From Brachynemurus nebulosus (taxonomy: Eukaryota > Arthropoda > Insecta > Neuroptera > Myrmeleontidae): a DNA stretch of 64,000 bases. The stretch is taken from assembly GCA_035578155.1 (NCBI GenBank), contig JAPWDM010000015.1:11412209-11476208 (forward strand), read 5' to 3'. The position numbers and the translations under genes are program-made. Positions 9,229 to 37,933 of the stretch are shown here, piece after piece; position 1 is the first letter of the stretch; every line of letters begins with the position of its first letter. The notes under the pieces were generated by a model. It saw only the letters and a program-made list of their open reading frames with translations, made no database searches and was not told the origin of the DNA.

Positions 9229-10138
9229 CTGCTGGCGTCCGAAAGAACCTGAATCTCTTAACTATTGTTCCAGCTGGCCAAGCATTTTCGTCATATAAAT
9301 TTTCCTTTAGTGCTGCAGGTGCAGTTACTTTAAAGCTTGCATTTAATCCCTTACTATCCAGTTTTTCTACTGTAAACTTTCGTTGTGGAAATAGATCAGT
9401 CAGATGATTTATGACGTTGTCTTCCGTAGTTTCTGAATCAAGGCGACCCAAATACAGATAAATTTTTTGTTCAGCCGCAGTAATAAAACTATTTTTATTT
9501 GTATTATTTCCTACAATGACATTTTTCTTGTCAACATTATGCAAATTTTTATTAATTTCAGTTTGTTTATAATCACTATTTGAATTGTCACTAGAATTTT
9601 GTTTATTTTGATGTAAAATTTGTGACAATAAATGACTATCCTTTTGTTGTTGTTGTGCAACATCAACTTGTTTACTTGTATGACTTGTTATATTCATATT
9701 TTTAACCAACGCGTCATTTCCATTATTGTTTGATGTTTTAATATCACAGTTTTTATTATTTTGATTTAAAATTTTTAGCTTATCTTCTAGAAAAGATATT
9801 TTGTCTTTAAGTAAATTATTGCAATCTTGTAGTATACGATTTTTGTCTTTTAATTCAAGTATTAGTTCATTTTTATAAAAATTTGTTTCGTTTTTATGTT
9901 TATCCATAATGGTGTCTTTAGATGATTCACACACTGTCAAAACAGGCAATGGATCATGATACTGTTCCGATTCTTCACTGATTAATTGATTTGCACTAAA
10001 TATAGCATTTAAATAATTAATTAATAACACATTAGATATATCTTTTGGTACTTTTTTTGTTATTAAAATTTCAATTAATTCACATTTTTTCAATTTATTA
10101 AGTTCAACAGTCACTTGTGACAAATCAAAGTCCGCCAT
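9209..10138 (-). CDS. LINE ORF1 protein
   Basis: This 309-residue frame starts at an ATG. The N-terminal 60 residues are helical and Leu/Lys-rich. Residues about 85-130 look like a coiled coil with heptad Leu/Ile (ELKDKNRILQDCNNLLKDK). A Gln/Asn-rich linker follows, and the C-terminal 85 residues (from KIYLYLGRLDSETTED to WPAGTIVKRFRFF) form a compact RRM-like segment found in ORF1 proteins of insect CR1-group LINEs. In such elements ORF1p binds the element RNA and acts as a chaperone in the RNP. The frame is intact and its end overlaps the start of the endonuclease frame by 20 bases. Confidence 0.7.
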   Translation of the reverse strand: MADFDLSQVTVELNKLKKCELIEILITKKVPKDISNVLLINYLNAIFSANQLISEESEQYHDPLPVLTVCESSKDTIMDKHKNETNFYKNELILELKDKNRILQDCNNLLKDKISFLEDKLKILNQNNKNCDIKTSNNNGNDALVKNMNITSHTSKQVDVAQQQQKDSHLLSQILHQNKQNSSDNSNSDYKQTEINKNLHNVDKKNVIVGNNTNKNSFITAAEQKIYLYLGRLDSETTEDNVINHLTDLFPQRKFTVEKLDSKGLNASFKVTAPAALKENLYDENAWPAGTIVKRFRFFRTPAGVLKPK

Positions 10139-10314: not shown

Positions 10315-10976
10315 ATGCCTCACAGAAGAGGAATTATAAAATATTATTAATGACAGTTTCTCAGATTTTGAAGATAGTGGATCAGAATATATTCCACCAT
10401 AACCTGAAAGCTCTGATAAGGAAAATAAACCGCCATTATCTCAAGGAGAAGAAAATAATATAGACACGCAAAGTGAGGGTGATGGAACAGATGTTGAAAG
10501 TGAAACTGAAAGCGATTTACAAGTTCTTCAGGAAGAAGAAAATAATAGCAGAGCTGTAGCTGAAAGCAGAGATGAGGAATTGATAGTAATAGAAACATGG
10601 ATTAATATTTTTATGGGTATAAACCACGAAAAGTTTATGGATATAAACCACGAAAGACTTGATTTATCTGAATCGTTGAGAAAACAAACGAACGGTTACA
10701 AATTCTTAAGTCAGCCAAACCTGCTCAAAACATAATTTTGACCGATCAGTATGAAACAGTGATAATTATTGGATGATATTTCATAATGTCATACAATAAA
10801 GTGCCAGCTCTTCACCACTATCGGTCTACAAATCCGCTTCTCGGTAATACTGCTATAAAACAAGCCATATCAAGAAACAGATTCCAATTGCTCTTATCCA
10901 AAATGTATTTCAATTCACCTCAAAAACATGACGGTACATCTAAACTATATTGCATTGAAATTGTAATTGACTGTCT
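10315..10976 (+). pseudogene. piggyBac 1 transposase, N-terminal part
   Basis: An acidic N-terminal segment of a type usual for piggyBac transposases (SDFEDSGSEYIPP, then a Glu/Asp/Ser-rich run) is readable from about 10330 with two stops. From 10786 the frame reads VPALHHYRSTNPLLGNTAIK and then AISRNRFQLLLSKMYFN, the conserved block before the catalytic core. It ends in EIVIDC at the gypsy insertion site. Removing one GTCT copy and the LTR element restores a continuous frame into the part at 22854, so the coding region was uninterrupted there when gypsy B landed. The N-terminal stops may predate or postdate this. Confidence 0.8.
10973..10976 (+). repeat. Target site duplication GTCT, left copy
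   Basis: GTCT directly precedes the 5' LTR and is repeated at 22850-22853 directly after the 3' LTR. Four bases is the Ty3/gypsy norm. Confidence 0.9.
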
Positions 10977-12340
10977 TGTTACAAGCCGGGTTTATTATTC
11001 AAAATTTAAATATTTTTTATATTTTTATGGGAATAGAAATAATTCCAAATTAAAAAGTTTGAATCAAAATTTCAAGTTGATATTAAAGTAATGCGTAGCT
11101 ACATATTCTAATCTAATGAACACTTGCATAAATAAATAATTATTAAATATTTCTATAAACAAAAAGGTCCATTCATCGAAGTAACGGCGTAAGTTAAATA
11201 AATTTGTCGAGTATCGGGACATGTAAGAAATTATTTAGACTAAACATCCGGGCGACACCGTTGGCGATAAATAATAATTAATAAATTAACGAGAAATAAT
11301 TAATTGCTGATAAGGATTTTTTTTGCTATGGAACTTTCTAGAATAAATTTATAGACCAGAGGGGTATGAGGTAAAGGGTATGTAGAAGCCAAGCAAAATT
11401 GAAAATCAAAACGGTTAAAAACAGTCGTTCATGAGATTTCATAGTGTAAAGAAGTCGGATTGTGGGTTTTTGGGGTGTTTTAGTAAAGTGTACTTATTGT
11501 GTAATAAGGGTTTTATTGTTGATTGGGTGAGACGGGCTTGTGCTTATAGTACGATCGGGTTAGTTTGGAGAACTTTTTGGGATATTTTAATTAGTTAACC
11601 GGGACATTTGGAAATTATTTTAAACTTTAGGGTGACATAAACTTGTAAAATTTAACATTAAAGTATTTTGTATATGTAATAAGTAAGTGTAGTATTATAA
11701 GAAAATAGTTTTAGTGCGATCTATCCTAATTTATAAGGAGAATTTGGTGAGTACCTACCTAAAATTTTGTAATATTTTATGGTTCACATTCTTCTCTTTT
11801 TTTTTTTTTAACTAAAACCTCAAACATTAACTTCTGGGACCGATTGTGAAAATAATAATAATTACGGGGATCAGCGGGTACAAAGGGTTAAATTTTTATT
11901 TAGCAAGCGTATTGAATATTTTGATAGTTGACTGTAACAATGGGTCCGCGAATGATGTTTGAAGTTTAGTATATTTTATTGGGTTCTGTATTATTTAAGG
12001 CGTCAGATTATGATAATTTTATATTAATTTGGGTAAATTGTTTATTTTATTCGTTGATACGAGAGGAGATTATTAATGTAATTTTAGATGGGTTATAATA
12101 AATTGGAATAAAAGGGAATTTCGGTTGTTTTATTTCTGTAATTTTAAATCTTTTATTTCAGCCAGAAAATCCACTTTTATCGCCAATTAATCCTTACGGA
12201 TTAACCTTGGCAGGAGTTCGAACCCCTGCTTCTATATTCGGCACATGAAAATTTACGCTACCCGTGTGTCGAGTAAATAATATAATTCGCCGTTCCTTGG
12301 TTTTCCATATACATATGGTTAACTACGGGGCTCGGTAACA
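10977..12340 (+). repeat. Gypsy B 5' LTR
   Basis: It is bounded by the short inverted repeats TGTTAC and GTAACA. It shares over 99 percent of positions by eye with 21480-22849. Two hairpin-forming palindromes lie near its 3' end (12187-12229). Confidence 0.93.
12187..12229 (+). promoter_or_regulatory. Double hairpin with tRNA B-box-like motif in the LTR
   Basis: TTAATCC-TTAC-GGATTAA forms a 7-bp stem (12187-12204). It is followed by GCAGGAGTTCGAACCCCTGC (12210-12229), a 20-base palindrome with one mismatch. The second contains GTTCGAACC, which fits the RNA polymerase III B-box consensus GWTCRANNC and resembles a tRNA T arm. Both hairpins are conserved in the 3' LTR. A role in reverse transcription, packaging or transcription is inference only. 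Confidence 0.5.
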
Positions 12341-13140
12341 TTATGGTGGCAGCGTCTATGGGATAAAAGTAGGAAATTTTCTGGCGAAAATCAATCATTT
12401 TTGGGGAAAATTAAATAATTTTCAGGGGAAAAATTTTTTTGTTTTCGGTCAATTTTTAACATAAAATTGATGTAATTACATTTTATTGTTTCATCTGGGA
12501 TAAATATAGTTAATTGTTGAGTTAATTGTTGAGAATTTTTGATTGTTGCATACTCGACTGTATTGTTGGGTACATATTTTAATTGTTGGGGGGTAACAAT
12601 TATAATTGTTGTATATGTATATGATTTCTATTGTTGGGTATATGATATTTTAAAGTAAACTGTAGACATTTTGGTTCAAAATTGTATTTAATATTATTGC
12701 ATTTATTAACAATTATATTTTATTCAATTGTTATATTTTTCTTAATATAAATTTTTGGAGGGTATATTTGGGTTATTTACAGGTAATTGTTGCAGTATTT
12801 AAGGGTTCATTGTTGCGGTTACCATTTATTTATGTGTAATTATTGATTTTATGGGTCATTGTTGATTAAACAGCTGATTTATACAGTATACATATAGGCC
12901 AGGGACACATACACACACATATATACACATATTGGGTACATACAAGGGCAATAGACTTTACATACACATTGGGCATAAAAATACTTCACAAAGTAAACAC
13001 ACATCTTATCACATATCAACAACATCATGTAACATATTTTGAAATATTATACCCTGTGCCAAAATATACTCCGTTCAGGTAAAATGGGAAACAAAATAAT
13101 TTTATTATAATGTAATTTTTCTTTTATTTTCATATTGCAC
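12341..13140 (+). promoter_or_regulatory. Gypsy B leader (5' UTR) with ATTGTTG cluster
   Basis: The 800-base leader lies between the 5' LTR and gag. The primer-binding site should be in TTATGGTGGCAGCGTC right after the LTR; I cannot assign the tRNA. The heptamer ATTGTTG occurs ten times between 12513 and 12864. One flanking sequence, TGTTGCATACTC (about 12545), fits the Drosophila Su(Hw) consensus YRYTGCATAYYY. CAG-GTAAAA at about 13075-13083 and CAG-GTAATT at about 12780 are candidate splice donors for an env mRNA. Confidence 0.5.
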
Positions 13141-14367
13141 ATGTGGACAATACTACTTTGTTGTACTTTCATTGTGGTGCTATTTTGTGTATATAGATTG
13201 GGGAGGTTTTATAAAATGGAGCAGCCAGTGATAAACATTGAAGCTCCGCGGGTGAGTTTAAACTATCTGGCCAACGCAATGGACAATTTGACGGGGAGGG
13301 AAAATGTGCGGGAGTATTTTGATAAACTCGAAAGAAGGGCAAGGATGGACAATTTAACGGAGGACCAAATTTTAATGGTGGTAAAATGTAAACTAAGTGG
13401 GGAAGCGTACAAATATTTTAAAAGTGAGCCTCATAACTTAGATGAACTAAGTTATGAGGAGTTTAAGGATAAGTTAATTAAAATGTTTAAGCCAAAAAGA
13501 GTGCCAGGGTCAGGGTATTATAAACTAGCGGGGACAATTCAGCAAAGTAAGGAGTCAGTGCGGGAATTTGTGATTAGGATTAAGTTGGCGGGACAAGAAG
13601 TGTTAGAGGAGGACTTGGCAGGGGCAGAACCTACAGAAGTGCCGGGAATTAAAAAGAAGAACGAACGTCTAATGATTGACTTATTGAAAAACATTGGGGT
13701 GGCGTTCATGCGGGAGGGACCGGGATTGACATTAGAAGGGGCGTGTGAGTTGGCGGAGCAGGAAGAGCTCCACCAGCAAATATTGAGTAGTGTGGGGCGA
13801 GGGGTACAAGCCCTAAGAGTTGACTCGGGGGAAGGGGGTGTGCAGGGGGTGTCAACCCCTCGTCAAACGGAAACGCGACCGCGAGTGATCCCACCCAGCT
13901 TCCAGGCGGCCGCTAGGGAAAGGGAGATGGGAAGGCCAAATGTGACGGGGCGAGATACGGCCGAGCAATCGGGGCGTCGGGATTTGTCGGCGGTGCAGTG
14001 CCTAAACTGTTTTGGGTTTGGGCACTTTGCGAAAGAGTGTCGGGCACCAATGGTATGTCGTTGGTGTCGATGGGCCGGACACATTGGGAGGGAGTGCCCT
14101 AACCCAACAGGGCAGGTAGCACCTGCGGGATTGAGAGGGTTGCCTCGGGAAGCGGGACCACCTCGACCAGCGGGAAGTTGGCAAGGGGCGATACCTAAGA
14201 GAGGTCGTGGCCGGGGTGTACCGCCGGTGTTGGGACGGGTGAGAGCAGAGGAAGCCGCACCCAGGGAGATAACTGTTGAAACGGTTGATGGGGCAACTGT
14301 GGGGGCACGGGAATATTTAAACCGGGCAGGCGCCTCGAGTGGGCCCCAAACCGAGGACGCCCAATAA
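13141..14367 (+). CDS. gag: Gypsy B Gag polyprotein
   Basis: This 408-residue frame starts at the ATG at 13141. Capsid-like helical sequence (from SLNYLANAMDNLTGREN) is followed by a Pro/Gly/Arg-rich nucleocapsid part with two CCHC zinc knuckles, CLNCFGFGHFAKEC (residues 287-300) and CRWCRWAGHIGREC (306-319). Gag forms the particle and the knuckles bind genomic RNA. The first 25 residues are strongly hydrophobic (ILLCCTFIVVLFCVY) and then basic, which would make a signal anchor. If translation instead begins at M26 (13216, ATGGAGC) the protein would lack it. The last 18 codons overlap the -1 frame into pol after TTTAAAC at 14316. GC content is higher than in surrounding DNA. Confidence 0.88.
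   Translation: MWTILLCCTFIVVLFCVYRLGRFYKMEQPVINIEAPRVSLNYLANAMDNLTGRENVREYFDKLERRARMDNLTEDQILMVVKCKLSGEAYKYFKSEPHNLDELSYEEFKDKLIKMFKPKRVPGSGYYKLAGTIQQSKESVREFVIRIKLAGQEVLEEDLAGAEPTEVPGIKKKNERLMIDLLKNIGVAFMREGPGLTLEGACELAEQEELHQQILSSVGRGVQALRVDSGEGGVQGVSTPRQTETRPRVIPPSFQAAAREREMGRPNVTGRDTAEQSGRRDLSAVQCLNCFGFGHFAKECRAPMVCRWCRWAGHIGRECPNPTGQVAPAGLRGLPREAGPPRPAGSWQGAIPKRGRGRGVPPVLGRVRAEEAAPREITVETVDGATVGAREYLNRAGASSGPQTEDAQ
14316..14362 (+). promoter_or_regulatory. Gag-pol -1 frameshift signal: TTTAAAC plus downstream stem
   Basis: In the gag frame the codons read TAT TTA AAC, giving an in-phase heptamer T TTA AAC at 14316-14322, a canonical eukaryotic -1 slippery site. A -1 shift enters the pol frame, which is open from there through the protease. 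Downstream bases can form a two-part stem: GGGC (14324-14327) with GCCC (14359-14362), and CCTCG (14333-14337) with CGAGG (14352-14356). The self-complementary loop GGGCCC may allow further pairing. This matches the heptamer-spacer-structure layout of retroviral frameshift sites. Confidence 0.8.
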
Positions 14368-17300
14368 TTTTAATTCCGAGAATACAGGGTGTTTCCTGGG
14401 ATATACCTTATATTGTACAAGGAAAATATAATGGACAAATTTTAAATTTTATTGTTGATTCGGGATCAGTGGTGTCAATTTTGAGGTCAGAAATTTTGGG
14501 TAATGAATCAATTCGGGATATTGGAAATATTTTTCTAACGGGAATCACAGGAAACACCTTGTTACCGGAAGGGGCGGCAATAGTGAAATTAAATTTTGCG
14601 GGTGTATTATATTCTGTGGATTTTATTGTATGTACGGGGTTAAAAATAGAGACAGCTGGGCTGTTGGGTCGTGACTTTTTGAGTAAATATGGTGTTATTA
14701 TTGACTATAAAAATAATTTATTGAATTTGGGGGATAGAACAATTGAGTTAATCGCTGGAACTGAATCTGGGGTGGATCTGGTGGGTCGTAATACGAAATT
14801 TTCACAAAATAAGGGGAAAGCTGACTCCAAATTACCTGCATATGGGAAAAATGATCTTAAAATGAGTGAAAGTGGGGGAAAAGTGCGTTTGAAAGATTCG
14901 GGTAGTGCGGGGAAAGTGCGAGATGAGAAACCGGGTCGAGTGGAAACATCAGTGGGGGAAACTCGGAGCATTCAGCATACATCGGGGGATACAAATGGAT
15001 GTGAGAAGCAATCGGTAGTAGTACAGCGTGGAAGCAGAGGTTCACACCAACATCAGGAACATCATGCTGAGGCGTCTACTAGTTCGGGAAGTAACAACAA
15101 CATGTCGTTTCGGAATGGGGATGCGGGGAAATCACACCAACATTCGGAAAATAGTGGGAAAACATCAAGAAAACAGATCCACACCAAAATTAACAGAAAT
15201 AAAATTTTTGGAGGTGCGGGGAAATTCCCAAAAAATTCAAATGGGACGCTGAAAAGCACAGAAAAAGGAACCTTAGCAAAATCGAAACCAAAACAAGACG
15301 TTCAACCGGATGTTCAGCATAAAGTGGGTCCGAAAAACACCGAGATTATTGTACTACTCGATGAGGAATTGGAGATACCATCACGATCTGAATGTACAAC
15401 ACGGGCAAAACTTAAAAACAAATTTCCAAATGGGATCTGTGTACTAGTGGAGCCGGGAGAAATTCTAATTCATGGTGTCATGGCCGCTAGGGTATTATCC
15501 AGAGTAAACAATGGGAATCAAGTTTTGGTTCGACTTATCAATACGGGTAATCAGTCAGTTACTATCGGAGCTAAAGCACCAATAGCAGTAGCACAAGGAT
15601 ATACTGAGGAAACATACAATTTAACATCGGGTCACGAACAACGGGAGGCACATGTACTACATGTACAGTCGGGGTCATCATTAAGTGAACAGGTCGACTT
15701 AAAACATTTACAACCTGAAGATCGGGATAAAGTTTTAAATCTTTTAATGGAGTATCGGGATATTTTCTACACAGAGGGCACTAAACTGGGAACTGCGAAG
15801 GGAATAAAACATCGGATTATTACTGAGAATGTACATCCAATTGCGAGGCGACCATACAGGGTACCTCAGGCACAGCGGGAATTATTACGACAGCAGATAA
15901 ATGAGATGTTGGAAGATGGAATTATTACGCCATCAACTTCACCATGGTCTGCACCTGTTGTCATTGTACCAAAGAAATCCGATGATGGGCAACCAAAAAT
16001 TAGGGTTTGTGTCGACTACAGAGAACTCAATTCTGTGACAAAAAGGGATTTTTATCCGCTTCCAAGCATGCAGGAAACATTTGATATGTTGTCCAATGCT
16101 AACTTGTTCACTACTTTGGACTTAGCTTCTGGGTACTGGCAAGTAGCTGTTGCAGAGGAAGACCAAGAGAAGACCGGGTTCAGCATTTTCGAGGGGCATT
16201 ATCATTTCCGAAAAATGCCGTTTGGATTAAAAAATGCGCCGAGCGCGTTTCAGCGGCTTATGGATACAATCTTGGCAGGGCTCGTGGGACACAAATGTTA
16301 CGTATATTTGGATGACGTGATCATATTCAGCACTAAGGGGATCGATGAACATCTTTCACGGTTACGGGAAGTCTTCGATTGCTTACGGGAAGCAAATTTG
16401 AAGCTAAAACCAGAAAAGTGCAAATTCCTACGGGAACAAACGAAGTACCTAGGACATATTATTTCAGGGAGTGGGGTACAGCCGGATACACAGAAATTGT
16501 CAGCTGTTAGGGACTATCAGAGACCTCAGAGTGTGAGGGACGTTCGTGCATTTCTTGGACTGACAGGCTTCTACAGAAAGTTCATTCCAGATTTCGCTCG
16601 AATTGCCAAACCACTTACTATCTTGACGAAAAAAGATACTAGCTTTACATGGACAGAAGAAGCCGAGGGAGCATTCAATACATTAAAGGAAATTCTGTGT
16701 AAAGAACCGGTTTTAGCGTACCCAGATTTTAACAAGCAGTTTATATTAACAACGGATGCTTCGGGATATGCTATCGGGGCTATTTTGAGTCAAGAGTACG
16801 AGGGACATGAACGACCAATTGCGTATGCTAGTCGGCAGCTAAATAAGGCTGAACGCAATTATTCAACCACTGAGCGCGAGTGCTTATCCGTGGTCTGGGG
16901 TGTCAAACATTTTCGCTGTTATCTGTACGGGCGACCTTTTAAGATCATAACGGCTCATCGACCACTTAGGTGGTTACTTTCAATCAAAGATCCAAGTTCT
17001 AGACTGGCAAGATGGGCATTAACACTGGCTGAGTACGAATTCGAAATTATTCACAGACCTGGGAGGAAAAATGGGAATGCAGATGCACTGTCGAGGGTAC
17101 CAGCACCAAATATAAGTGTCAATCAAGCGGAAATACAATACGAGCCATTTTGGGATAGAGAAACATTTAAAAAGGGGCAACAACGGGATCCACTTATACA
17201 AGAAATTATCCGAAAATTGGGAGAAAATAAAGAAAATGAGTTTTACTACTTAGATGAGGATGGAATTTTGTACAAGAAAAGGGTTATCACCGAACGACAT

Positions 17301-18752
17301 GATAGATTAGTCGTTCCGGCAAATATGGTACGAGAAGTTATACGGGCATATCATGCAGCACCTTATTCGGGACATCAGGGCTATGAACGGACACTAAGTT
17401 TTATAAGCGATAAATTTTATTGGGTAAATATGGCTAAAGATGTAAAGAAAATGTGTGAAGAATGTGTTTCGTGTGCTCAAAGGAAGACAAAACCTACAAA
17501 ACCAGCACCACTTTTAAAACTACCAGCAGTAGAGGCACCATTTGAACGGATCGCAATGGATATTGTGGGACCACTTGTAACTTCTATGCGGGGAAATAAA
17601 TATATTTTAACTTGTCAGGACTACTTTACTCGATATCTGGAAGTGATACCACTACCGGATCAGAGGGCTGATACCGTAGCGAGGGCTTTCGTCGAAAACA
17701 TCATTACGAGACACGGGGTACCAAGGGCATTAATTACGGACCAAGGGACCAATTTTACATCAAAGTTAATGAAGGAAATTTGTCAAATTCTCGGGATTGA
17801 AAAGATTCAAACAACACCGTACCATCCGCAGTCAAATGGTATGATTGAGCGCAGTCACCGGGTTATCAAAGATATGCTATCGCACTATATTAGTGACACT
17901 CAACGAGACTGGGACGAGTGGTTACCATTCGTGGTTATGGCATATCGTAGTCACGTACACAGTTCAACGGGTGAAACTCCATTCTTTTTACTACACGGGA
18001 GGGATATAGAACTGCCGTATGACGAAATTATTAAACCACGTCGAGTAACGGCAGATTGTAGTGAAAATTATGCGGCGGAGTTAATCCAAAGGCTTAATCA
18101 AGCATACACTCAGGTGACGGAACATCTAAAACAAGCGACAGAAAAACAAGTAGTTCGGTATAATCAAAAAGCAAAGGAAGTTACATATCAACTAGGTGAT
18201 AGGGTATATCTACATGATCCATCTGCTTGTATTAAAGGGTCCAAAAAGTTAGCGAAACCATGGGTTGGGCCATTCAGAATTGTTGGGATAAAGGGACCGG
18301 TCACATACAAGATAAAAGAGATCTATGGGCGTAGACAATTCATCGTACATGTAAATAGATTGAAACCGTGCAAATATGTGGATGATGATGGGCCAGCAAA
18401 TATTCGTGAACAACCTGAAGTTGAAGAAGAACCGGGAAATAATCAGGGCGCTGAACCGGGAAATAATCAAGGTAATCAATTGGACGCAAATCGGGTAAAT
18501 GATAGGGTTCAATTGGATGAAGACTGGCCATTACAGTTTCGAGTCATCTTACAACCAAACGTAGCTCCGGGTCAAGACGATCAAGTAGAACCAGAAGAAC
18601 GGGAAGAAGATATAGTAAACGATCAAGTAGAACCAGAAGAACGGGAACAAGAAATAGTAAATGAGCCGGAACCAGAAGATGTACGACATTACCATACACG
18701 TAGCCGTGGTCCAGTCGAGGATCAACCGTGGGTTCTAGATCGGGCAATATAA
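14322..18752 (+). CDS. pol: Gypsy B Pol: protease, RT, RNase H, integrase
   Basis: Pol is reached by the -1 shift. In order it shows an aspartic protease (VDSGS at 14454-14468), a low-complexity spacer (about 14750-15340), RT (about 15780-16500; catalytic YLDD at 16305-16316), RNase H (16690-17090), HHCC integrase zinc finger (HAAPYSGHQG to CEECVSC), integrase core with D (AMDIVGP), D (LITDQGTNF) and E (SNGMIERSH), a GPY/F-type module (KPWVGPF, GPVTYK) and an acidic tail with a repeated DQVEPEERE unit. It processes Gag-Pol, copies RNA to DNA and integrates the product. RNase H keeps TDAS and the Glu of EREC but has TAH (Ala codon at 16953) where the family has TDH, so one metal-binding residue is missing. 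No stop interrupts the frame. Confidence 0.92.
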   Translation, partial: PGRRLEWAPNRGRPIILIPRIQGVSWDIPYIVQGKYNGQILNFIVDSGSVVSILRSEILGNESIRDIGNIFLTGITGNTLLPEGAAIVKLNFAGVLYSVDFIVCTGLKIETAGLLGRDFLSKYGVIIDYKNNLLNLGDRTIELIAGTESGVDLVGRNTKFSQNKGKADSKLPAYGKNDLKMSESGGKVRLKDSGSAGKVRDEKPGRVETSVGETRSIQHTSGDTNGCEKQSVVVQRGSRGSHQHQEHHAEASTSSGSNNNMSFRNGDAGKSHQHSENSGKTSRKQIHTKINRNKIFGGAGKFPKNSNGTLKSTEKGTLAKSKPKQDVQPDVQHKVGPKNTEIIVLLDEELEIPSRSECTTRAKLKNKFPNGICVLVEPGEILIHGVMAARVLSRVNNGNQVLVRLINTGNQSVTIGAKAPIAVAQGYTEETYNLTSGHEQREAHVLHVQSGSSLSEQVDLKHLQPEDRDKVLNLLMEYRDIFYTEGTKLGTAKGIKHRIITENVHPIARRPYRVPQAQRELLRQQINEMLEDGIITPSTSPWSAPVVIVPKKSDDGQPKIRVCVDYRELNSVTKRDFYPLPSMQETFDMLSNANLFTTLDLASGYWQVAVAEEDQEKTGFSIFEGHYHFRKMPFGLKNAPSAFQRLMDTILAGLVGHKCYVYLDDVIIFSTKGIDEHLSRLREVFDCLREANLKLKPEKCKFLREQTKYLGHIISGSGVQPDTQKLSAVRDYQRPQSVRDVRAFLGLTGFYRKFIPDFARIAKPLTILTKKDTSFTWTEEAEGAFNTLKEILCKEPVLAYPDFNKQFILTTDASGYAIGAILSQEYEGHERPIAYASRQLNKAERNYSTTERECLSVVWGVKHFRCYLYGRPFKIITAHRPLRWLLSIKDPSSRLARWALTLAEYEFEIIHRPGRKNGNADALSRVPAPNISVNQAEIQYEPFWDRETFKKGQQRDPLIQEIIRKLGENKENEFYYLDEDGILYKKRVITERHDRLVVPANMVREVIRAYHAAPYSGHQGYERTLSFISDKFYWVNMAKDVKKMCEECVSCAQRKTKPTKPAPLLKLPAVEAPFERIAMDIVGPLVTSMRGNKYILTCQDYFTRYLEVIPLPDQRADTVARAFVENIITRHGVPRALITDQGTNFTSKLMKEICQILGIEKIQTTPYHPQSNGMIERSHRVIKDMLSHYISDTQRDWDEWLPFVVMAYRSHVHSSTGETPFFLLHGRDIELPYDEIIKPRRVTADCSENYAAELIQRLNQAYTQVTEHLKQATEKQVVRYNQKAKEVTYQLGDRVYLHDPSACIKGSKKLAKPWVGPFRIVGIKGPVTYKIKEIYGRRQFIVHVNRLKPCKYVDDDGPANIREQPEVEEEPGNNQGAEPGNNQGNQLDANRVNDRVQLDEDWPLQFRVILQPNVAPGQDDQVEPEEREEDIVNDQVEPEEREQEIVNEPEPEDVRHYHTRSRGPVEDQPWVLDRAI

Positions 18753-19058
18753 AATCAACTAATTACCGCATACACTGTGAAAAACTATTTTTCAAAATTT
18801 TAAAGTCTTAAGTGCGCGTAACGAGGGTCCACTGTACTGTTTAAAAATTTCAAAAAAAAAAAATTTAAACTATCTTAAAAAAAAAAAAAAAAATTAAAAA
18901 ATTTTTTTAAATTAAATAAATTGGCAATGACTTACGGGGGCGTACTGTACTAAAAGTCTATTAACAACATTGATAAATAAACAAATAATTTTAATACATC
19001 ATATAAAAATATTATCGGGTATCTCAAAATTGTGTTATCATCTTTACAGGACATCAAA
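18753..19058 (+). promoter_or_regulatory. Pol-env interval with env splice acceptor
   Basis: This interval is A-rich and non-coding. TCTTTACAG ends at 19049, ten bases before the env ATG, and makes a good 3' splice site. This supports env expression from a spliced subgenomic mRNA, as in errantiviruses. Confidence 0.6.
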
Positions 19059-21080
19059 ATGGGACAGTGGTTGCAACTAATCGTTGTGTTACTGGTAATC
19101 AGGTACAGTGCGGCAATTATAGTGTATGACTGTCGGGGACCCAATACTAATATATCAGTGATATCGGTTAAAGACATTGCTCAGTGTCCGGATCCAAAAA
19201 ATGACTATACGGAGGTGCGAAAAGACATTCAAATAATACAAAAAAATGACTTTACTGGGGTGCACGTACAGACATGTTTGGTGGAAGTGACGCGCATTAT
19301 ACAACGTTGTGGGATGTTTAGTCATGTATCAGCGGTACCACAAGGACTTTTGAGTTATGTACATCGGGTCGGGCCAGAAGAATGTAAAAATATTCACCGA
19401 ACACGTTCGTTTTATGGGTTCAAAGGACATATAATTGGGAATATTCAAGCAAATGCTACTACAGTCACGGGTATAACATTAGCAGGTAGTGTTACGGTTG
19501 ATGGGCAATGCAAGGGTACAACGTACACTGAAACCTCATTTACCTGGGAAGACGTCATTGTACTAGCTACAGTCAAAATTAGTACATTTGATTATCGGGC
19601 TACTGTGAAATTGGCAACCGACGAAATTGTATTAAAGGGTGGTGTCACATGTTCCTATGTTTCGGGTTACTGTATGGACACCGAAATTGGCGAAACTGTA
19701 TGGGAAGTTGGTATGCGTGGACAATGCGACAACAGGGCCTATCACATTTTGTACGAAGGGAGTGCAAGTTTAATCACGACAAATAAATCACACATATTTT
19801 TGGACACACAGTACATTGTAGTGGAACAACAGAATCGGGTATTCGCAATTACATTAAGGGAAAAATCATTCGTTTGTGATCAAGAAGCATGGGGAACCGA
19901 GCATCCAAAATTAATGGTGATTGAGCGTAAAACTTATGGGTATAAATTTCGAATGAATGACCAGCTGGGATCAGAGAACGTCGATTTGCTCACTTATATA
20001 AATACTAAGTTTATGTATGTTGAGCAGAGCATCAAAAGAACGCTACACAATTTTCACGTCCAAACTATTCATCGACGCTGTCTATTAAATAGAGAGGTAT
20101 TGAAGAATAGACTTTTAGTAGCGCCATTATCAACCAATGCAGTCGGGGTTCTACTGAAAAATCAATTAGGCTTTACGGGTCGGGTACTGGGTGAAGTAAT
20201 ATACCTCATGCAGTGTGTTCCAAAAGTAGCGGAAGTTCGACGGGACAAGTATTGTTACAACGAACTACCAGTTTCAGTAAATAATGAGTCGTTATTTATG
20301 GCACCTGTTACACACATTTTACAAGAACGGGCAAAACAAATAGAATGTTCACCACTAACACCGCCATTGTATCACATTGGGAATAAATGGGTAGGATTCA
20401 GTCCATTACCAAATACGGGAATTCAACCAGAAATAATCAAAGTCGATAGCGAACCATATCCGGAATTTCAACCACTACAACAGCTAAGTACTGGGGGCAT
20501 CTATTCAAATGAGGAAATCAGGGCAGTTCAACATTCTTTAACTTTCGGGGCTGAACGACAAGCGGTATCAACAATAATAACAAGAAAATTGATTGGGCTT
20601 GATACGGAAAATCAGGGGTACTCAACAGTGAATTTATTCGATGCAAACGAAATTCAAGGGTTAGCCAAGAAGACATTCAGTGCTGTATGGGGATGGTTTA
20701 CTGATATTGGACTTTTCACATCCAGTATATTGGGTATTTACATAATTTTTCGATTTTGTAAATACTTAATTGGGGCCGTATTAAATGGGTTATCATTATA
20801 TGAAATACTGGGATGGAGTTTCGGGTTGCTGGCATGTTTATGGAATACCTTAACCGTTTGGATCATACACCGATACCATAAACAAAACACGGGCATATCA
20901 CGGGAAGAACAACCAAAAGTGGAAAATCAGGAAGCACGGGAAGACACAATGCGGGATTCGACCATAATCGATATGGATGGGACTACAGAAAAGGACAAGC
21001 AGGGAAAAACCACCACCAGCGAAGTGAAGACATTGTATCCAGGAGTGAAGATTCACGTTGCAGGAGTGCCCATTGAGTGA
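19059..21080 (+). CDS. env: Gypsy B Env, chuvirus-type glycoprotein
   Basis: This is a 673-residue intact frame. It begins with a signal peptide (QLIVVLLVIRYSAA) followed by VYDC. A Cys-rich ectodomain contains CLVEVTRIIQRCGMFSHVS, ITLAGSVTVDGQCKGT and GVTCSYVSGYCMD. Near residues 540-604 are one or two membrane segments (SSILGIYIIFRFCKYLIGAV and FGLLACLWNTLTVWII), then a charged cytoplasmic tail of about 70 residues. The spacing of these Cys blocks is what I know from glycoproteins of chuviruses (Jingchuvirales) and from env genes of some insect LTR elements; it lacks the furin plus GLINGLGS fusion motif of element C's F-type env. The assignment is by remembered pattern, not by search. It would mediate membrane fusion and possible extracellular spread. 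Confidence 0.75.
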   Translation: MGQWLQLIVVLLVIRYSAAIIVYDCRGPNTNISVISVKDIAQCPDPKNDYTEVRKDIQIIQKNDFTGVHVQTCLVEVTRIIQRCGMFSHVSAVPQGLLSYVHRVGPEECKNIHRTRSFYGFKGHIIGNIQANATTVTGITLAGSVTVDGQCKGTTYTETSFTWEDVIVLATVKISTFDYRATVKLATDEIVLKGGVTCSYVSGYCMDTEIGETVWEVGMRGQCDNRAYHILYEGSASLITTNKSHIFLDTQYIVVEQQNRVFAITLREKSFVCDQEAWGTEHPKLMVIERKTYGYKFRMNDQLGSENVDLLTYINTKFMYVEQSIKRTLHNFHVQTIHRRCLLNREVLKNRLLVAPLSTNAVGVLLKNQLGFTGRVLGEVIYLMQCVPKVAEVRRDKYCYNELPVSVNNESLFMAPVTHILQERAKQIECSPLTPPLYHIGNKWVGFSPLPNTGIQPEIIKVDSEPYPEFQPLQQLSTGGIYSNEEIRAVQHSLTFGAERQAVSTIITRKLIGLDTENQGYSTVNLFDANEIQGLAKKTFSAVWGWFTDIGLFTSSILGIYIIFRFCKYLIGAVLNGLSLYEILGWSFGLLACLWNTLTVWIIHRYHKQNTGISREEQPKVENQEAREDTMRDSTIIDMDGTTEKDKQGKTTTSEVKTLYPGVKIHVAGVPIE

Positions 21081-21479
21081 GTGATACAGTGAAAAAAAAA
21101 AATCTTAAATTTGTGTATGTTAAATCTTAAGTTGTGGTATGTGTAGTTTAAATAAACAAACAAAATTGTAGATATTAAAACTGAGTGTAGTGACCTAGTG
21201 AAGAATGCATATGTATGCAAGGACGTTATGTAAAGACATTAAGGGGATTAGACCAAGTAATTAGTTAAAGTAGTTGGTCCAAGTTAATAACAGTATAAAT
21301 TTAATAAGTACTAAATATTAAAATGGGTTTAATTAAATTAGCTGAATAATTAATTAAGGGGTACTCACCAACAAAACTTATCCGTCTATTCGGGGAATGG
21401 AACACCTAAATCAAGTAGCAAAATTCGAAAAGGCTGGTCGATCTGGGAGAGCGACCATCTTTTTCAAAGGGGGGAGTGC
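21081..21479 (+). other. Gypsy B 3' untranslated region and polypurine tract
   Basis: About 400 bases without a gene follow env. AAAGGGGGGAG at 21466-21476, three bases before the 3' LTR, is the polypurine tract that primes plus-strand synthesis. Confidence 0.75.
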
Positions 21480-22849
21480 TGTTACAAGCCGGGTTTATTA
21501 TTCAAAATTTAAATATTTTTTATATTTTTATGGGAATAGAAATAATTCCAAATTAAAAAGTTTGAATCAAAATTTCAAGTTGATATTAAAGTAATGCGTA
21601 GCTACATATTCTAATCTAATGAACACTTGCATAAATAAATAATTATTAAATATTTCTATAAACAAAAAGGTCCATTCATCGAAGTAACGGCGTAAGTTAA
21701 ATAAATTTGTCGAGTATCGGGACATGTAAGAAATTATTTAGACTAAACATCCGGGCGACACCGTTGGCGATAAATAATAATTAATAAATTAACGAGAAAT
21801 AATTAATTGCTGATAAGGATTTTTTTGCTATGGAACTTTCTAGAATAAATTTATAGACCAGAGGGGTATGAGGTAAAGGGTATGTAGAAGCCAAGCAAAA
21901 TTGAAAATCAAAACGGTTAAAAAAAGTCGTTTATGAGATTTCATAGTGTAAAGAAGTCGGATTGTGGGTTTTTGGGGTGTTTTAGTAAAGTGTACTTATT
22001 GTGTAATAAGGGTTTTATTGTTGATTGGGTGAGACGGGCTTGTGCTTATAGTACGATCGGGTTAGTTTGGAGAACTTTTTGGGATATTTTAATTAGTTAA
22101 CCGGGACATTTGGAAATTATTTTAAACTTTAGGGTGATATAAACTTGTAAAATTTAACATTTAAGTATTTTGTATATGTAATAAGTAAGTGTAGTATTAT
22201 AAGAAAATAGTTTTAGTGCGATCTATCCTAATTTATAAGGAGAATTTGGTGAGTACCTACCTAAAATTTTGTAATATTTTATGGTTCATATTCTTCTCTT
22301 TTTTTTTTTTTTTTTTTTAACTAAAACCTCAAACATTAACTTCTGGGACCGATTGTGAAAATAATAATAATTACGGGGATCAGCGGGTACAAAGGGTTAA
22401 ATTTTTATTTAGCAAGCGTATTGAATATTTTTATAGTTGACTGTAACAATGGGTCCGCGAATGATGTTTGAAGTTTAGTATATTTTATTGGGTTCTGTAT
22501 TATTTAAGGCGTCAGATTATGATAATTTTATATTAATTTGGGTAATTTGTTTATTTTATTCGTTGATACGAGAGGAGATTATTAATGTAATTTTAGATGG
22601 GTTATAATAAATTGGAATAAAAGGGAATTTCGGTTGTTTTATTTCTGTAATTTTAAATCTTTTATTTCAGCCAGAAAATCCACTTTTATCGCCAATTAAT
22701 CCTTACGGATTAACCTTGGCAGGAGTTCGAACCCCTGCTTCTATATTCGGCACATGAAAATTTACGCTACCCGTGTGTCGAGTAAATAATATAATTCGCC
22801 GTTCCTTGGTTTTCCATATACATATGGTTAACTACGGGGCTCGGTAAGA
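21480..22849 (+). repeat. Gypsy B 3' LTR
   Basis: It is the direct repeat of 10977-12340, beginning TGTTAC and ending GTAAGA, with one terminal change relative to the 5' copy. It is followed by the GTCT target copy at 22850-22853. Confidence 0.93.
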
Positions 22850-22853
22850 GTCT

Positions 22854-23890
22854 AAAGCACACCTTCCCCAAGGCAAGAGCAGAAAGTACCCACCAGTGCA
22901 TCGACGAAGCAATGGCTAAATTGAAAGGAAGATCTGTTCTCAAACAATTTTTACCTTTGAAACCTACGAAGAGAAGAATAAAAATTTGGGAAAGATGTGA
23001 TTCAATTACTAGATACACTTACGATTTGAGTATTTATTCAGGAAAAGAAGATAAGACAGAGGTGACTGATATTATAGGTGAAAGAGTCGTAAAGAAGTTA
23101 TGTCAAAGTGTTAGAGATTCTGACATTACCTTATGTTTCGATAGATTTTTTACTTCAACAAACCATTTAAATGAAACTCCTTTGGCTACTGTAGGCACAT
23201 TCATTCCTACTCGGAAGAATATACCTAAATTCACAAAAAAGAACAGACAAAGGGGAGATACCGAATTTCTTTGCAACCAATATGGTTTAATGGGAATACG
23301 ATGGCAAGATACAAAGGAAGTTTTAGTTCTGTCAGATTGTCATTCAGATCAAATGGCCACCGCCAAGAGAAAAAACAGGATGGTGCTAAAATAGAAATAT
23401 CCTGTCCGGAAGCCCTCGACTTTTATAACAGATTCATGGGTGGAGTGGATCTCCTAGACCAGCTTGTTGAGTTATATGGTATGGATAGAAAATCATTGAA
23501 GTGGTGGAAAAAGTTTTTTTTACCATCTCCTTATGACAGCAGTTGATAATATTCAAAGAAATAAGACAAAAAAATAAGCTATCTGGATTTCTTAGTACCA
23601 CTTGCAGAAGATTTAATTTCGTTCGGAAGGAAACATGTGAAAGTAGTTAGAAAGAGAGTTTACGGTAGGCCACATAAGAGCAGTAAAAAAATGATTAACG
23701 TCGGTGATCACCTGCCAGTGGAAGGAGACAGTCGCAGGAGGTGTATAAATTACACTAAAAATAAAAAAGAGAACGAAAACAACGTGTACTGGCTGCAATG
23801 CTGCATTATGCAAAGACTGTTTTGTCAAATATCATATTTGATATATTTTGTAACTGTAAATGTACCGGTGCGACTTATTGTTCCCGTTAA
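22854..23890 (+). pseudogene. piggyBac 1 transposase, catalytic and C-terminal part
   Basis: All three catalytic regions of the piggyBac DDD transposase are visible: CIDEAMAKLKGRS (first Asp), LCFDRFFTS (second) and GGVDLLDQ (third, about 23437). A frame change near 23390 separates the second and third. Another change occurs near 23530-23640. The C-terminal Cys-rich domain survives as CTGCNAALCKDCFVKYH at 23785-23835 in a shifted frame, where such domains bind the terminal repeats. The enzyme cuts and pastes at TTAA. With at least three frame breaks in this part plus the gypsy insertion it is inactive. Confidence 0.82.

Positions 23891-27723: not shown

Positions 27724-27809
<86 letters not shown>
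27724..27809. repeat. (AT)n microsatellite
   Basis: Uninterrupted AT dinucleotides run up to the 5' LTR of element C. The tract served as the insertion target: TATATA continues after the 3' LTR at 35462. Confidence 0.95.
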
Positions 27810-27813
<4 letters not shown>

Positions 27814-28232
27814 CGTTCTTAGAATAATGTATCTTAATATAATATATTATTAATTACATCAGCACTTTATTATCAATTATAATATTTCCTTATCTAAAGT
27901 AAACAATTTTTAAATAAAAATAATAATAATATTACATTTCAGTGTTTAATAAGCAATTTTAACTTAAATATTATATTACATTTTGTAATAGCTTGGCTGA
28001 GCACAAAATGTAAATTAAAACCAAAAGCTTAATAAGCACAACGAATATTCTAGAACATTGAAACAAAAGTATAAATACGTGGCTCCGCCAAGCTACCGAT
28101 TAGTCTTTTGGAGTTTGTACCATAATTGCATAGAAATATTTGTAACAACTGAAATCCGTTAAAATAAAAAACTTTGTAAATATTAAAAATAAAATTTATT
28201 TTTTATTGTTACGACTCGGCAACGAACGTAAC
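27810..28232 (+). repeat. Element C 5' LTR with TATA box
   Basis: It runs from GTTACG to CGTAAC. TATAAATA at 28070-28077 is a likely core promoter and the same box is present in the 3' LTR at 35301-35308. Confidence 0.9.
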
Positions 28233-28250
28233 TGGCGCAGTCGGTAGGAT
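28233..28250 (+). other. Primer-binding site, tRNA-Ser type
   Basis: TGGCGCAGTCGGTAGGAT directly abuts the LTR. It is complementary to the 3' end of insect tRNA-Ser including CCA, which is the primer used by the 17.6/297 errantivirus group. Confidence 0.85.
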
Positions 28251-28669
28251 ATCCGGATGGCACCTTCGTGTAACGTAGTTAAACTCGCGACGTGGTACAG
28301 TACTCGACGCTTAATCGTGACTTATCCATTGTCGAACTTGACGGTTCATCAAGTTATAGTGGTTTACTCAACTTCACGAGGAGCAAGGATATCCAGTACG
28401 TTTTCAAACATTTACGGACGGAATCTACGACAGGACGTCAACATCGTTCCAGTGAGTGACGGCTTATCACACATCAGGACACATCTACAACAGGCGTCCA
28501 CGCAGTCCTCTTCAACGTGACGGTTCATCACAACGAGGAGACGCAGTACCCAAACGGTGACGATTCATCATCAAGGAACAACAATCCCGGTTCAGGAATG
28601 TTTGTTCATTGAGTCATGTAAGTCGATTTTCAATTGTTGCTCGCATCATTTTGCTTTTCTATGCCAATT
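28251..28669 (+). other. Element C leader
   Basis: No gene is seen. Repeats of GTGACGG/CTTATC and GACGGTTCATCA-like motifs recur between 28312 and 28570, the phrase TTCATCA appearing at least three times. Confidence 0.5.
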
Positions 28670-29953
28670 AAAAACAAACTCATTTCCTTACGATCCAATC
28701 CTTATCAAAAACCAGAGACTTCCAATAATATCAGCGCCGCAGTAGACGGAGATAATATTGAGTTGTCCAGTGTTAGTCCGTCAATTTTAGTTTTAGAAAA
28801 TAATAATATAAACGATAATAATTTAGAGAGAAGAAATCCAAATAGTTCAAATAATAATTCAAATAATATTACAATGACTACCCTAACAGACATAATTAAT
28901 TCTCTACGAATTCCAGATGCTATTAAAGACCTACCAAATTTTGACGGAAACAAAAGAACTTTATACGATTTCATAAATAACGTAGAGGAAATTTTAAGCT
29001 TGATCCGCACAGCTAATGGCACTAGCTATGGCAAATTATTAGTTAGAGCCCTACGAAATAAAATAATAGGAAATGCAAACGAGGTACTCAATATGTACGG
29101 AACTCCCATTGACTGGGTCGAAATTAAAAACAATTTAATTACACGCTACTCAGACAAAAGAAACGAAACGAATCTTATTAAAGATTTTCATAACTTGAAA
29201 CAAGGAAATTTAACAATAGAAAACTGTTATAGTAATGTAATCGAAATTCTTTCTACAATACCGAATCACGTTAGAATACATGAAACTAATCCGGCTGTAA
29301 AAAATTCAAAATTAATGTTATATTCAGAAATGTGCTTAAATGTATTTTTATCAGGATTAAAAGAACCCCTAGGATCTACAATCTGAGCTATGAAAACTAC
29401 CACCCTTTCCGAAGCCTTTTCATACTGTATAAAGGAACAAAACATTTACTACACTAAGCAGAATACACAAATAACTGTAAATAAACCAAAAATCAACCAA
29501 TCATATCCACCTAAACCAATATCACAATTTAGATCCCCATATCCACCAATTCAGTATCATCGCCAACAATTTAATTCACAACCTCCACAACAAAGACAAT
29601 TTCCACAACCTAGTTCGTCAAAACCAATTCAGTCAACACGTCCGTCTGTAAATTACAGACCACAACCAATGGAAATTGGTAGTAATAGGCTCAGTATTAG
29701 AGCACCACAACATAATCAATCACAGAATCAAAATCCGCTCTTTAAGTCAATGTCGAAACCTACTTTTCGAAGCGAAGAGTTACACAATGTAGAAGAACAA
29801 AATTTTCAAAATTTAGACCAATTTTGCGAAGAAATAGACAATGATCAGTGCAACCAAACTAACGATAACACAGATGACAGTATACACGAAACAACTGACG
29901 AAATAGACGAATCAAATTTTCAATACACTTGGGACCACAACATGGTTACATAG
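28670..29953 (+). pseudogene. gag: Element C Gag with one internal stop
   Basis: Two same-frame segments (to 29386, and 29390-29953) are separated by a single TGA at 29384. The first half contains the capsid-like block IPDAIKDLPNFDGNKRTLYDF and GLKEPLGSTI. The second begins with SEAFSYCIKEQN and becomes Gln/Pro/Asn-rich. No CCHC zinc knuckle is present, which is normal for gypsy/17.6 errantivirus Gag. It builds the particle. The start is taken as the ATG at about 28670. Apart from the one stop the frame is open, so decay is moderate. Confidence 0.8.
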
Positions 29954-32451
29954 ACCAGAACGTACATGCAAACACACTACCCTATATTAACATCAGATCC
30001 TCACCCTGTCCCTTATTAAAATTCCTTATTGATACAGGAGCATCCCACTCGTTCATCAATCCTGAATATATTGACCCGAACGATACAATTCACATAGATC
30101 CAATAGAAATCAAAGCTGTTTTAAATACTTATAAATTAGACAAAAAAGTAATTTTACCTATGTTCAAAGAATTCAATCAACCTCAGGATAGTATAGAACT
30201 TTTGACTTTTCGATTCCATAAATAATATTATTTTGATGGACTAATAGGCTTAGATACGCTTGAAAAACTTAACGCGCAAATAGATATTACAAACAATCGA
30301 AAACACAAAACTCAATTATAAATTTGTCGTTTAAACCAAATTTAACGTCGGGAAAATATTCAATTCCACCGTTCACAAAACAACTCGTTAAGCTACCCGT
30401 AGATATTAAAAACGGAGAAATTTTCTTAAAAAATACTTATGTAAACAACAAAATACTTATTCCCGAAGGAATTTACCTATCCAGAGATTGGCACATTGTC
30501 GCTACCGCGATAAAATCTTACTGATCAAGACCAATTACTTTTCATTGAACAACCCTTAAAAGCAGAATTATTAAATCACGAAATTGTCCAGTTTGACGAA
30601 AGTCAAATAAATACTGATTATCCTCATAGTGAAACAGAAATAGAAAATCTAATACGTATAGACCACTTAAACAACGAAGAACGTAGAGCTATTGTCAATG
30701 TCTGTCGTCAATATGAAAAGATTTTTCTTAAAGAAAACCAAGATCTTACATTTACAAACAAAATTAAACATAGAATTACTACAACTGACGACGTTCCGCT
30801 ATACACGAAATCGTATAGGTACCCGGAAATTCATCGCGAAGAAGTTCGTAGGCAAATAGATCAGTTATTAAAACAGGGCATAATACGTCCTAGTTATTAA
30901 CCATGGTCCTCACCCATCTGGATAGTCCCGGAAAAAACGGACGCCAGTGGTAAAAAGAAATGGAGACTGGTCGTTGATTATAGAAAATTGAACGACAAGA
31001 CCATCGATGATAGATATCCGCTTCCCAACATCACCGACATACTAGATAAGTTAGGCCATTGTATGTATTTCTCCACATTAGATCTCGCGAGCGGGTTCCA
31101 TCAAATTGAGGTTCACCCTAAAGACATACCAAAAACCGCTTTTACTGTAGAAGGGGGACACTACGAGTATGTTAGAATGCCCTTCGGCCTTAAAAACGCC
31201 CCGCCAACATTCCAGATGGTAATGGACAACGTCCTTAGAGAATTGCAGGGTACAAGTTGTTTAGTCTATATGGAGGATATAATAGTATTTTCCACCTCTT
31301 TACAAAAACACGTAGAAAATCTTAAAAAGGTCTTCGAAAAATTACGAAAAGCCAATTTAAAAGTCCAATTAGACAAATGCGAATTTTTACACCGCGAGGT
31401 AGCCTTTCTTGGACATATAGTCTCAGAAAATGGTGTCAAACCCAATCCAGACAAGATAAACGCGATTAAAAATTTCCCAATTCCCAAAACGCAAAAGGAA
31501 ATAAAAAGCTTCCTAGGTCTACTAGGCTATTATAGAAAATTTATAAAAGATTTCGCGCGTATAGTTAAATCAATGACAAAATGTTTAAAAAAAGGAAAAA
31601 GCGTCAAACTAATACCCGAATACATTAAAACATTTGAAACTTGTAAAAATTTATTAACAGACGATCCAATTTTAGCTTATCCGAATTTTACAAAAAATTT
31701 CATTTTAACAACAGATGCTAGTAATGTGGCTTTAGGAGATGTTCTATCTCAGGGACCAATAGGACACGATCGTCCAATATGTTACGCTAGTAGAACTCTG
31801 ACCAATACCGAACAAAAGTACTCAACCATTGAGAAAGAACTACTTGCCATAGTATGGGCAACAAAATACTTTCGCCCTTATTTGTTCGGCAGAAAGTTTA
31901 AAATCATAACGGATCACAAGCCTTTGACGTGGTTAATGTCCTTCAAGGAGCCTAATAGTAAATTAGTCCGCTGGAGGCTTAAATAAGAGGAATTTGATTA
32001 CGAAATAGTATATAAACTCGGAAAGTTTAACACCAACGCTGATGCCCTTTCCCGAGTTCAAATCCCTGACATAAACATACACGAAACCGAAAGTAACACT
32101 TCCACACACGTGACGCAACACACAACAGACGATCAAACAGCACACAGCGCCGACGAAGACGATTCTTCTTTCATACCAATATCAGAAAATCCACTTAACG
32201 ATTTTAACCATCAATTAATTTTCGAACAAGTTAGTAATAGATCACAAGTAAAAATAAAAGTCTTATTTAAAATAAAAAAACGACATACCGTTCAACTTCC
32301 ATATTATGATGAAGAAGTACTAATCGATATTTTTAAGCAATTCGTTCCACCGAAAAAATTAACAGCCATTTACTGTTCTGATGATAATTTATTTAACAAA
32401 ATTCAAGAAGTTTATTCGGAATATTTTCTCAAGGGAAACATTTTAGGTTAA
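29929..32451 (+). pseudogene. pol: Element C Pol: protease, RT, RNase H (broken)
   Basis: The protease has LIDTGASHSF (Asp codon at 30031). A stop at 30223 and a frame change near 30320 follow. RT begins around 30540, with a stop at 30898, and continues [32 protein letters not shown] and then [11 protein letters not shown]; the GAG codon at 31273 puts Glu at the first catalytic Asp of the usual YxDD. RNase H keeps TDAS, EKELL and TDHKP, followed by a stop at 31984. The frame overlaps the end of gag by a -1 or similar shift. At least four breaks and the YMED change mean no active polymerase. Confidence 0.85.
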
Positions 32452-32453
32452 TA

Positions 32454-33584: not shown

Positions 33585-33649
33585 TCACTACATTCATATC
33601 ATAAATTTAACTGACTATATAGAAAATTTGGACAATATCGAAAATTAAA

Positions 33650-35067: not shown

Positions 35068-35461
35068 TGAATCTTAATATATATAATATATTATTAATTA
35101 GATCAGCACTTTATTATCAGTTATAATATTTCCTTATCTAAAGTAAACCATTTTTAAATAATAATAATAATATTATATTTCAGGGTTTAATAAGCAACTT
35201 TAACTTAAACATTTTGTAATAGTTTGGCTGAGCACAAAATGTAAATTAAAACCAAAAGCTTAATAAGCACAACGAATATTCTAGAACATTGAAACAAAAG
35301 TATAAATACGTGGCTCCGCCAAGCTACCGATTAGTCTTTTGGAGTTTGTACCATAATTGCATAGAAATATTTGTAACAATTGAAATCCGTTAAAATAAAA
35401 AACTGTAAATATTAAAAATAAAATTTATTTTTTATTGTTACGACTCGGCAACGAACGTAAC
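35050..35461 (+). repeat. Element C 3' LTR
   Basis: It is the direct repeat of 27810-28232 with a few deletions and substitutions. It is followed by TATATA, the target sequence copy. Confidence 0.9.
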
Positions 35462-35593
35462 TATATACTTAGTTTTAGTGTTTATAATATTTAATTTTTA
35501 AGTAGTGTTCACTGTGTGTAATTTTTAAGACTATGCTATTACTTACTATAAACTAATATACCTACATAGTGCTAATTCAGAAACACTTACACT

Positions 35594-37933
<2,340 letters not shown>

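Follow-up and report, generated by a model that had tools for sequence, protein, structure and literature searches.

A chuvirus-type glycoprotein as the likely envelope of a Ty3/gypsy retroelement in the genome of Brachynemurus nebulosus

What does a gene for a viral glycoprotein do in the genome of an insect? This question is raised by a stretch of 64,000 nucleotides from Brachynemurus nebulosus (Neuroptera, Myrmeleontidae; GenBank assembly GCA_035578155.1, contig JAPWDM010000015.1, positions 11,412,209 to 11,476,208), here called the window, in which the gene for such a protein, env, lies inside a single long terminal repeat (LTR) retroelement that spans positions 10977–22849. We regard this element as a member of the Ty3/gypsy group with a third gene for a chuvirus-type glycoprotein of predicted class III, likely its retroviral envelope that would carry particles into other cells, e.g. 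those of the germline; our probability for this reading is about 0.85. An earlier note had already proposed the union of a gypsy backbone with a chuvirus-type glycoprotein, and both halves are borne out: Env belongs to PF24664, has a gB-like predicted fold and is sister to the sampled chuvirus glycoproteins, and Pol is closest to Ty3.

The env frame (19059–21080, plus strand) is intact, as had been claimed, and encodes 673 amino acids without internal stop. Its translation matches the Pfam family PF24664 (Monjiviricetes_fusion) with an E-value of 7.5e-191 and 635.9 bits against a cut-off of 27, covering profile positions 8–651 of 653, so that chance is no concern for this assignment. The profile search that the earlier note had asked for places the protein neither with baculovirus F nor with phenuivirus Gc nor outside the viral families. 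Beyond PF24664, Pfam at E-values up to 1 gave only a chance match to Enolase_N, and searches of PDB sequences (E up to 1) and of NCBIfam gave no match. The cysteine blocks named before are all present in the translation. In the alignment used for the structure model (P0001 plus 49 of 55 database homologues) C151 is invariant across the 50 sequences, and conservation reaches 90% or more at C25, C43, C73, C84, C109, C198, C205 and C223. The fusion motif GLINGLGS, said to be missing from env, is indeed absent from it: six-frame translation of the whole window yields a single occurrence of the motif or its parts, at 33766 in a second gypsy-like element (element C, see below).

The structure prediction, also suggested earlier, yields a gB-like model with proteins of chu-related viruses as best matches, and the typical class III features (beta fusion domain, long central helix and C-terminal anchor) are found in it. 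Among the structure matches listed there are only gB-like, rhabdovirus-type and related chains, which leaves room for other fusion classes. The proposed signal peptide is compatible with a predicted N-terminal helix (residues 2–15) and the proposed C-terminal membrane segments with helices 529–584 and 589–610, all read from the predicted structure.

The genes upstream of env are those of a Ty3/gypsy element. The gag frame (13111–14364, plus strand, stop to stop) contains Retrotrans_gag and zinc knuckles. The pol frame (14289–18749, plus strand) is open from 14289, overlaps gag in the -1 frame and encodes protease (with a DSG motif), reverse transcriptase, RNase H and integrase. Within the overlap the slippery heptamer T TTA AAC (14316–14322, plus strand, gag frame) is the predicted frameshift site. 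Reverse transcriptase, RNase H and integrase exceed the Pfam cut-offs, the best PDB match of Pol is Ty3 Gag-Pol (E 5.3e-112), and Pfam order and this best match agree with reverse transcriptase and integrase of Ty3 type in the order protease, reverse transcriptase, RNase H and integrase. A named Pfam peptidase is found in Pao elements; Pfam lists no Pao-type domain at E-values up to 5, and among solved structures Ty3 is the best match.

The termini are equally typical. The 5' LTR (10977–12340, plus strand, 1364 bp, TGTTAC...GTAACA) is directly preceded by the target duplication GTCT (10973–10976), which recurs just behind (22850–22853) the 3' LTR (21480–22849, plus strand, 1370 bp). A primer-binding-site-like motif, TGGTGGCAGCG (12344–12354, plus strand), starts three bases past the 5' LTR, occurs in all three sibling leaders and would presumably pair with the 3' end of tRNA-Leu(AAG). 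The polypurine tract AAAGGGGGGAG (21466–21476, plus strand) ends three bases short of the 3' LTR and is conserved in the siblings L003, L005 and L011. Direct LTRs, short target duplication, primer-binding site and polypurine tract are thus all present, as in Metaviridae. Aligned with each other, the two LTRs show 8 differences in 1363 positions and 8 gap columns, and together with the GTCT duplication this justifies the words "near-intact" and "nearly identical LTRs" of the earlier note, with the qualification that one RNase H residue is lost (see below). The element is inserted in a transposase gene, which we take to be of piggyBac-like type: a DDE_Tnp_1_7 remnant follows at 22912–23394, and the matching 5' piece, recognised from the reading of open frames, precedes the element at 10786–10976. 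A further DDE_Tnp_1_7 piece is found at 36623–37168, downstream of element C.

Could the glycoprotein gene of a chuvirus have been endogenised by chance beside or inside a gypsy copy and be carried along without a role, i.e. as a plain endogenous viral element (EVE)? An earlier survey classed such genes in this way, with mostly fragmentary LTR elements nearby (PMC10084718). The remainder of the same genome speaks a different language. The env search of the assembly (960 Mb, 138 contigs) scored 66 of 358 candidates and gave 70 match rows, so that all env counts are lower bounds, and one env may yield two rows. At least 23 rows belong to the family of the window (91–100% identity), at least 32 to a second group (45–58%) and at least 15 to a third (31–34%); near full length and free of stops are at least 35 of the 70 (8, 14 and 13 per group). 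All 30 loci inspected have gypsy pol 5' of env, and so do all 20 longer pieces, where the largest upstream match is 42–66% identical to the pol of the window. With six places common to both sets these are 44 places in total, and 26 of the 70 env rows fall outside them. A passenger would hardly be preceded by gypsy pol in 44 of 44 places, nor in three divergent env groups alike. The description as a retrovirus-like chimera therefore stands as far as the combination is concerned, and fails for a single chimera, as dozens of such envs share this genome.

The siblings on contigs C122 and C59 carry LTRs identical across 1094 and 1099 bases (the part of their 3' LTRs covered by the pieces), from which a very recent insertion of the family follows. 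A third sibling, on C105, was left out of this comparison since the start of its 5' LTR was not found in the piece. Three identical env copies on one contig (G000:C1:68157223, 68167718 and 68178213) lie 10,495 bases apart with the same stop in each; they are either a tandem array with common LTRs or an assembly repeat.

A second argument against a mere passenger comes from the predicted splicing of env. The putative acceptor (19037–19049, plus strand) has its AG 9 bases 5' of the env ATG, and the site, TTATCATCTTTACAG followed by GAC, is kept in 12 of 12 printed family copies, the window included. In 12 rows of other families, representing about eight families and judged by eye, a pyrimidine-AG site lies 5' of env in nine, and a clear acceptor site is seen in six families. 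A candidate donor, CAG/GTAAAA (13076–13084, plus strand), is located 5' of gag and a second one at 12780; both are conserved in three of three sibling leaders.

The third argument is purifying selection. In nine family copies (the window included, one copy with a stop, L008 and L009 dropped as identical to L007) pN/pS of env, the ratio of nonsynonymous to synonymous polymorphism, is 0.126 over 36 pairs. Among variant env codons 36 of 99 are nonsynonymous, compared with 71–77% expected under mutation alone (P at most 1.2e-12). Of the variants common to several copies, which arose during the spread of the copies, only 5 in 33 are nonsynonymous. An integrase stretch of 140 codons in the same copies has 6 nonsynonymous variants among 26, none of those shared. 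Polymorphism ratio and codon counts together indicate that Env stayed functional while the family multiplied. The passenger hypothesis is thereby largely contradicted, and we consider it highly improbable.

Selection could also act on a protein that serves the host, e.g. as a domesticated blocker of the entry of related viruses and not as envelope of the element. Such a role was proposed for solo glycoproteins of mosquitoes by Dezordi et al. 2020 (PMC7642597). In Brachynemurus none of the 44 envs examined is solo, each one sitting behind gypsy pol, which makes a host function very unlikely here, if slightly less so than a passenger.

For the envelope of a retroelement the following cycle can be proposed. 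Full-length RNA would be driven by the 5' LTR; Gag-Pol would arise by -1 frameshifting on T TTA AAC, and the env mRNA by use of the splice acceptor that ends at 19049. Env would go through the secretory pathway, trimerise and fuse membranes in the manner of gB or rhabdovirus G. Particles would leave the expressing cell and enter others such as germline cells, where reverse transcription would begin at the primer-binding site and integrase would insert the copy, leaving a 4-bp duplication.

Several observations weigh against this interpretation. The gag profile match is weak (Pfam E about 3e-5), and that of the protease remains below the Pfam cut-off (E 0.002), its DSG motif being present. RNA 3' of the heptamer folds no better than shuffled sequences (z -0.61) and gives no support for a stimulating structure. 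The TM-scores of the Env model to gB are modest (0.17–0.44 among the 50 matches listed). Among the other-family rows the acceptor is weak in 1 of 12 and absent from the printed stretch in 2 of 12. The codon counts take variants as independent, and purifying selection shows that Env mattered during the spread and is no proof of an infection route. Finally, judged by motif pattern, RNase H of the window copy has lost a conserved acidic residue that is kept in 14 of 14 other scored pol frames; this copy may therefore depend on its siblings and may be unable to finish the cycle alone.

Did each env always travel with its own pol? Trees of both genes were reconstructed for the window and 11 other copies from the 20 upstream pieces. 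Left out were L033, L038, L040, L047, L049 and L050 (broken or incomplete frames), C116_159 (wrong frame from the env search) as well as C89 and C17_42 (near duplicates). The pol tree joins C58_61 and C17_142 (99/100) among the eight members of a group that includes the window (80/100). In the env tree C58_61 groups with C41_92, C1_36 and C45/C122 (100/100). In approximately unbiased (AU) tests this env-B clade is rejected by pol (p-AU 0.003); by env, both the pairing of C58_61 and C17_142 (p-AU 3e-5) and the eight-member pol group (p-AU 0.014) are rejected. The pol of C58_61 is 68% identical to C17_142, 65% to the window and 52–55% to C45, C41_92 and C1_36; its env is 57–63% identical to the latter three, 37% to C17_142 and 33% to the window. 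The simplest reading of trees and identities is at least one exchange of env between gypsy lineages, and a swapping of envelopes among the gypsy relatives in this genome is likely. L054/L041 (G000:C58:61553393), with pol resembling the group of the window and env of the third group, is the clearest swap candidate.

The conflict might be an artefact of long branches, lineage loss or assembly chimeras. The pol fork with the key group has an ultrafast bootstrap of only 80 (SH-aLRT, the Shimodaira–Hasegawa-like approximate likelihood ratio test, 100), the clades were named only after the trees had been seen, and the env clade of the window itself is not rejected by pol (p-AU 0.221). Against this, the plain identities of C58_61 display the conflict without any tree, and the rejections of the env-B clade by pol and of C58_61 plus C17_142 by env are strong. 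We consider an artefact unlikely, with a chance that is nevertheless worth keeping in mind.

Relatives of Env are found well beyond this genome. A database search (7996 candidates scored) returned 55 homologues, with identities of 43–48% for beetle-named proteins (Onthophagus, Tribolium, Molorchus, Leptinotarsa), 30–35% for hymenopteran-named ones and 26% for Gambie virus. A Cotesia protein is, according to Pfam, an integrase core fused to the glycoprotein, and an Osmia protein starts with a protease-like DTGA stretch where Pfam lists no protease; both point in the same direction as the Brachynemurus genome, that is to a retroelement with a glycoprotein. A phylogeny of 33 rows was rooted on xinmoviruses, with several of the virus family labels being our own, taken from the names. 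The 17 insect-genome envs fall on one side of a branch (96/91) adjoining 10 chuvirus-type glycoproteins (100/99), and a branch with 100/100 separates the two together from the xinmovirus side. A clade of the other 16 envs that leaves out the beetle protein from Acanthoscelides is rejected (p-AU 0.002), so this protein belongs among them. The envs stand beside and not among the 10 virus rows, which were labelled by name or closeness to Nuomin virus and all came from one Nuomin virus glycoprotein query, so that wider sampling could change this result. Glycoproteins of Chuviridae (Nuomin, Genoa, Karukera, dermapteran chu-related virus 142) form the sister clade, with a similar predicted fold for the chu-related viruses; they differ in being genes of negative-strand RNA genomes, among which the insect envs are not nested. 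One Ixodes persulcatus protein (P0130) is 90% identical to the Nuomin virus glycoprotein across 23% of it, which suggests either that a chuvirus sequence has recently been inserted in the tick or that there is contamination.

Such a glycoprotein is usually read as derived from a negative-strand RNA virus; with the insect-genome envs as sisters of the sampled chuviruses, the tree itself gives no direction. Of the earlier claim of a glycoprotein from a negative-strand lineage the chuvirus type remains (profile, fold and sister position), and the direction of transfer does not. It is even conceivable, though rather doubtful, that the envs of insect genomes form an ancient lineage of their own, borne by retroviruses and passed between gypsy lineages as a swappable cassette, that such envs make up the majority of the "orphan chuvirus glycoprotein EVEs" in beetles and ants, and that the original transfer could have gone from a retroelement to an RNA virus.

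How does the element compare with known systems? Anakin, a BEL/Pao LTR retroelement of mosquitoes, likewise has a chuvirus-type glycoprotein as third gene according to Dezordi et al. 2020 (PMC7642597); it differs from the element of the window, whose backbone is Ty3/gypsy. Anakin is also mentioned in one passage of the Troyka paper. According to legends in EMBO Rep 2026, which cites Chary and Hayashi 2025, type III fusion glycoproteins are common to gypsy elements, RNA viruses and BEL, and the paper argues, with the same citation, for the antiquity of envelope-bearing gypsy elements (PMC13172572). Such elements resemble ours in Ty3/gypsy gag-pol plus class III env (predicted here) and differ in genome and copy. 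From the statements on Anakin and in EMBO Rep 2026 it follows that the kind is already in print and that the window holds a new, well-preserved member.

Drosophila errantiviruses (gypsy, ZAM and others) have the same gag-pol-env plan; their env mRNA is spliced, and for the env described here splicing is predicted from conserved sites. Their env is F-type (PMC12992720), in contrast to the chuvirus-type env of predicted class III described here; the F-type (baculovirus-like, class I) env of classical errantiviruses is not what the Monjiviricetes_fusion match and the gB-like model indicate. A contrast is also offered by element C (27809–35462), a broken gypsy-like element with LTR-like repeats 93.5% identical and with reverse transcriptase and integrase pieces in separate frames. 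Its env piece bears RLVKR-GLINGLGS, from which we take it to be F-type; Pfam gave no meaningful match for this piece. The pol of the element at 10977–22849 is 47% identical to that of element C over 490 columns, and the latter, the sole presumed F-type pol compared, stands on a long branch in the pol tree.

Jingchuvirales glycoprotein EVEs of beetles and ants are catalogued as non-retroviral insertions in three surveys (PMC10084718, PMC6540820, PMC9963324). They belong to the same protein family, and database proteins with beetle and ant names stand in the clade of our env. According to the 2023 survey, previous studies had shown chuvirus glycoprotein genes to outnumber those of nucleoprotein or polymerase in insect genomes; it considered retrotransposons as a cause of this excess and reports Gypsy fragments close to such genes, with "no clear evidence" of Gypsy capture (PMC10084718); the hosts of that survey contrast in this respect with Brachynemurus nebulosus and its many gypsy-env pairs. 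The ant survey places 224 chuvirus glycoprotein genes in a lineage separate from known exogenous viruses (PMC6540820). The Viro3D paper contains neither of the terms chuvir and jingchu. Our literature search, with Chary and Hayashi 2025 and most subscription papers outside its scope, found neither a described gypsy element of this family nor any account of envs being swapped between gypsy lineages of chuvirus type; the pol/env exchange is the part for which no report was found in the literature searched.

Two further pieces lie upstream of the element. A non-LTR retrotransposon (6458–10138, minus strand) has reverse transcriptase and endonuclease domains in separate frames, and a stray open frame with an integrase core (3380–4114), just under the Pfam cut-off, is perhaps what is left of an LTR element.

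For one host the question whether such glycoproteins belong to retrotransposons is hereby directly answered, with gypsy pol at all 44 env places examined and an Env selected during the spread of its family. Should env indeed be a cassette that passes from one retroelement lineage to another, this one genome would offer a natural series on the gain and change of cell entry.
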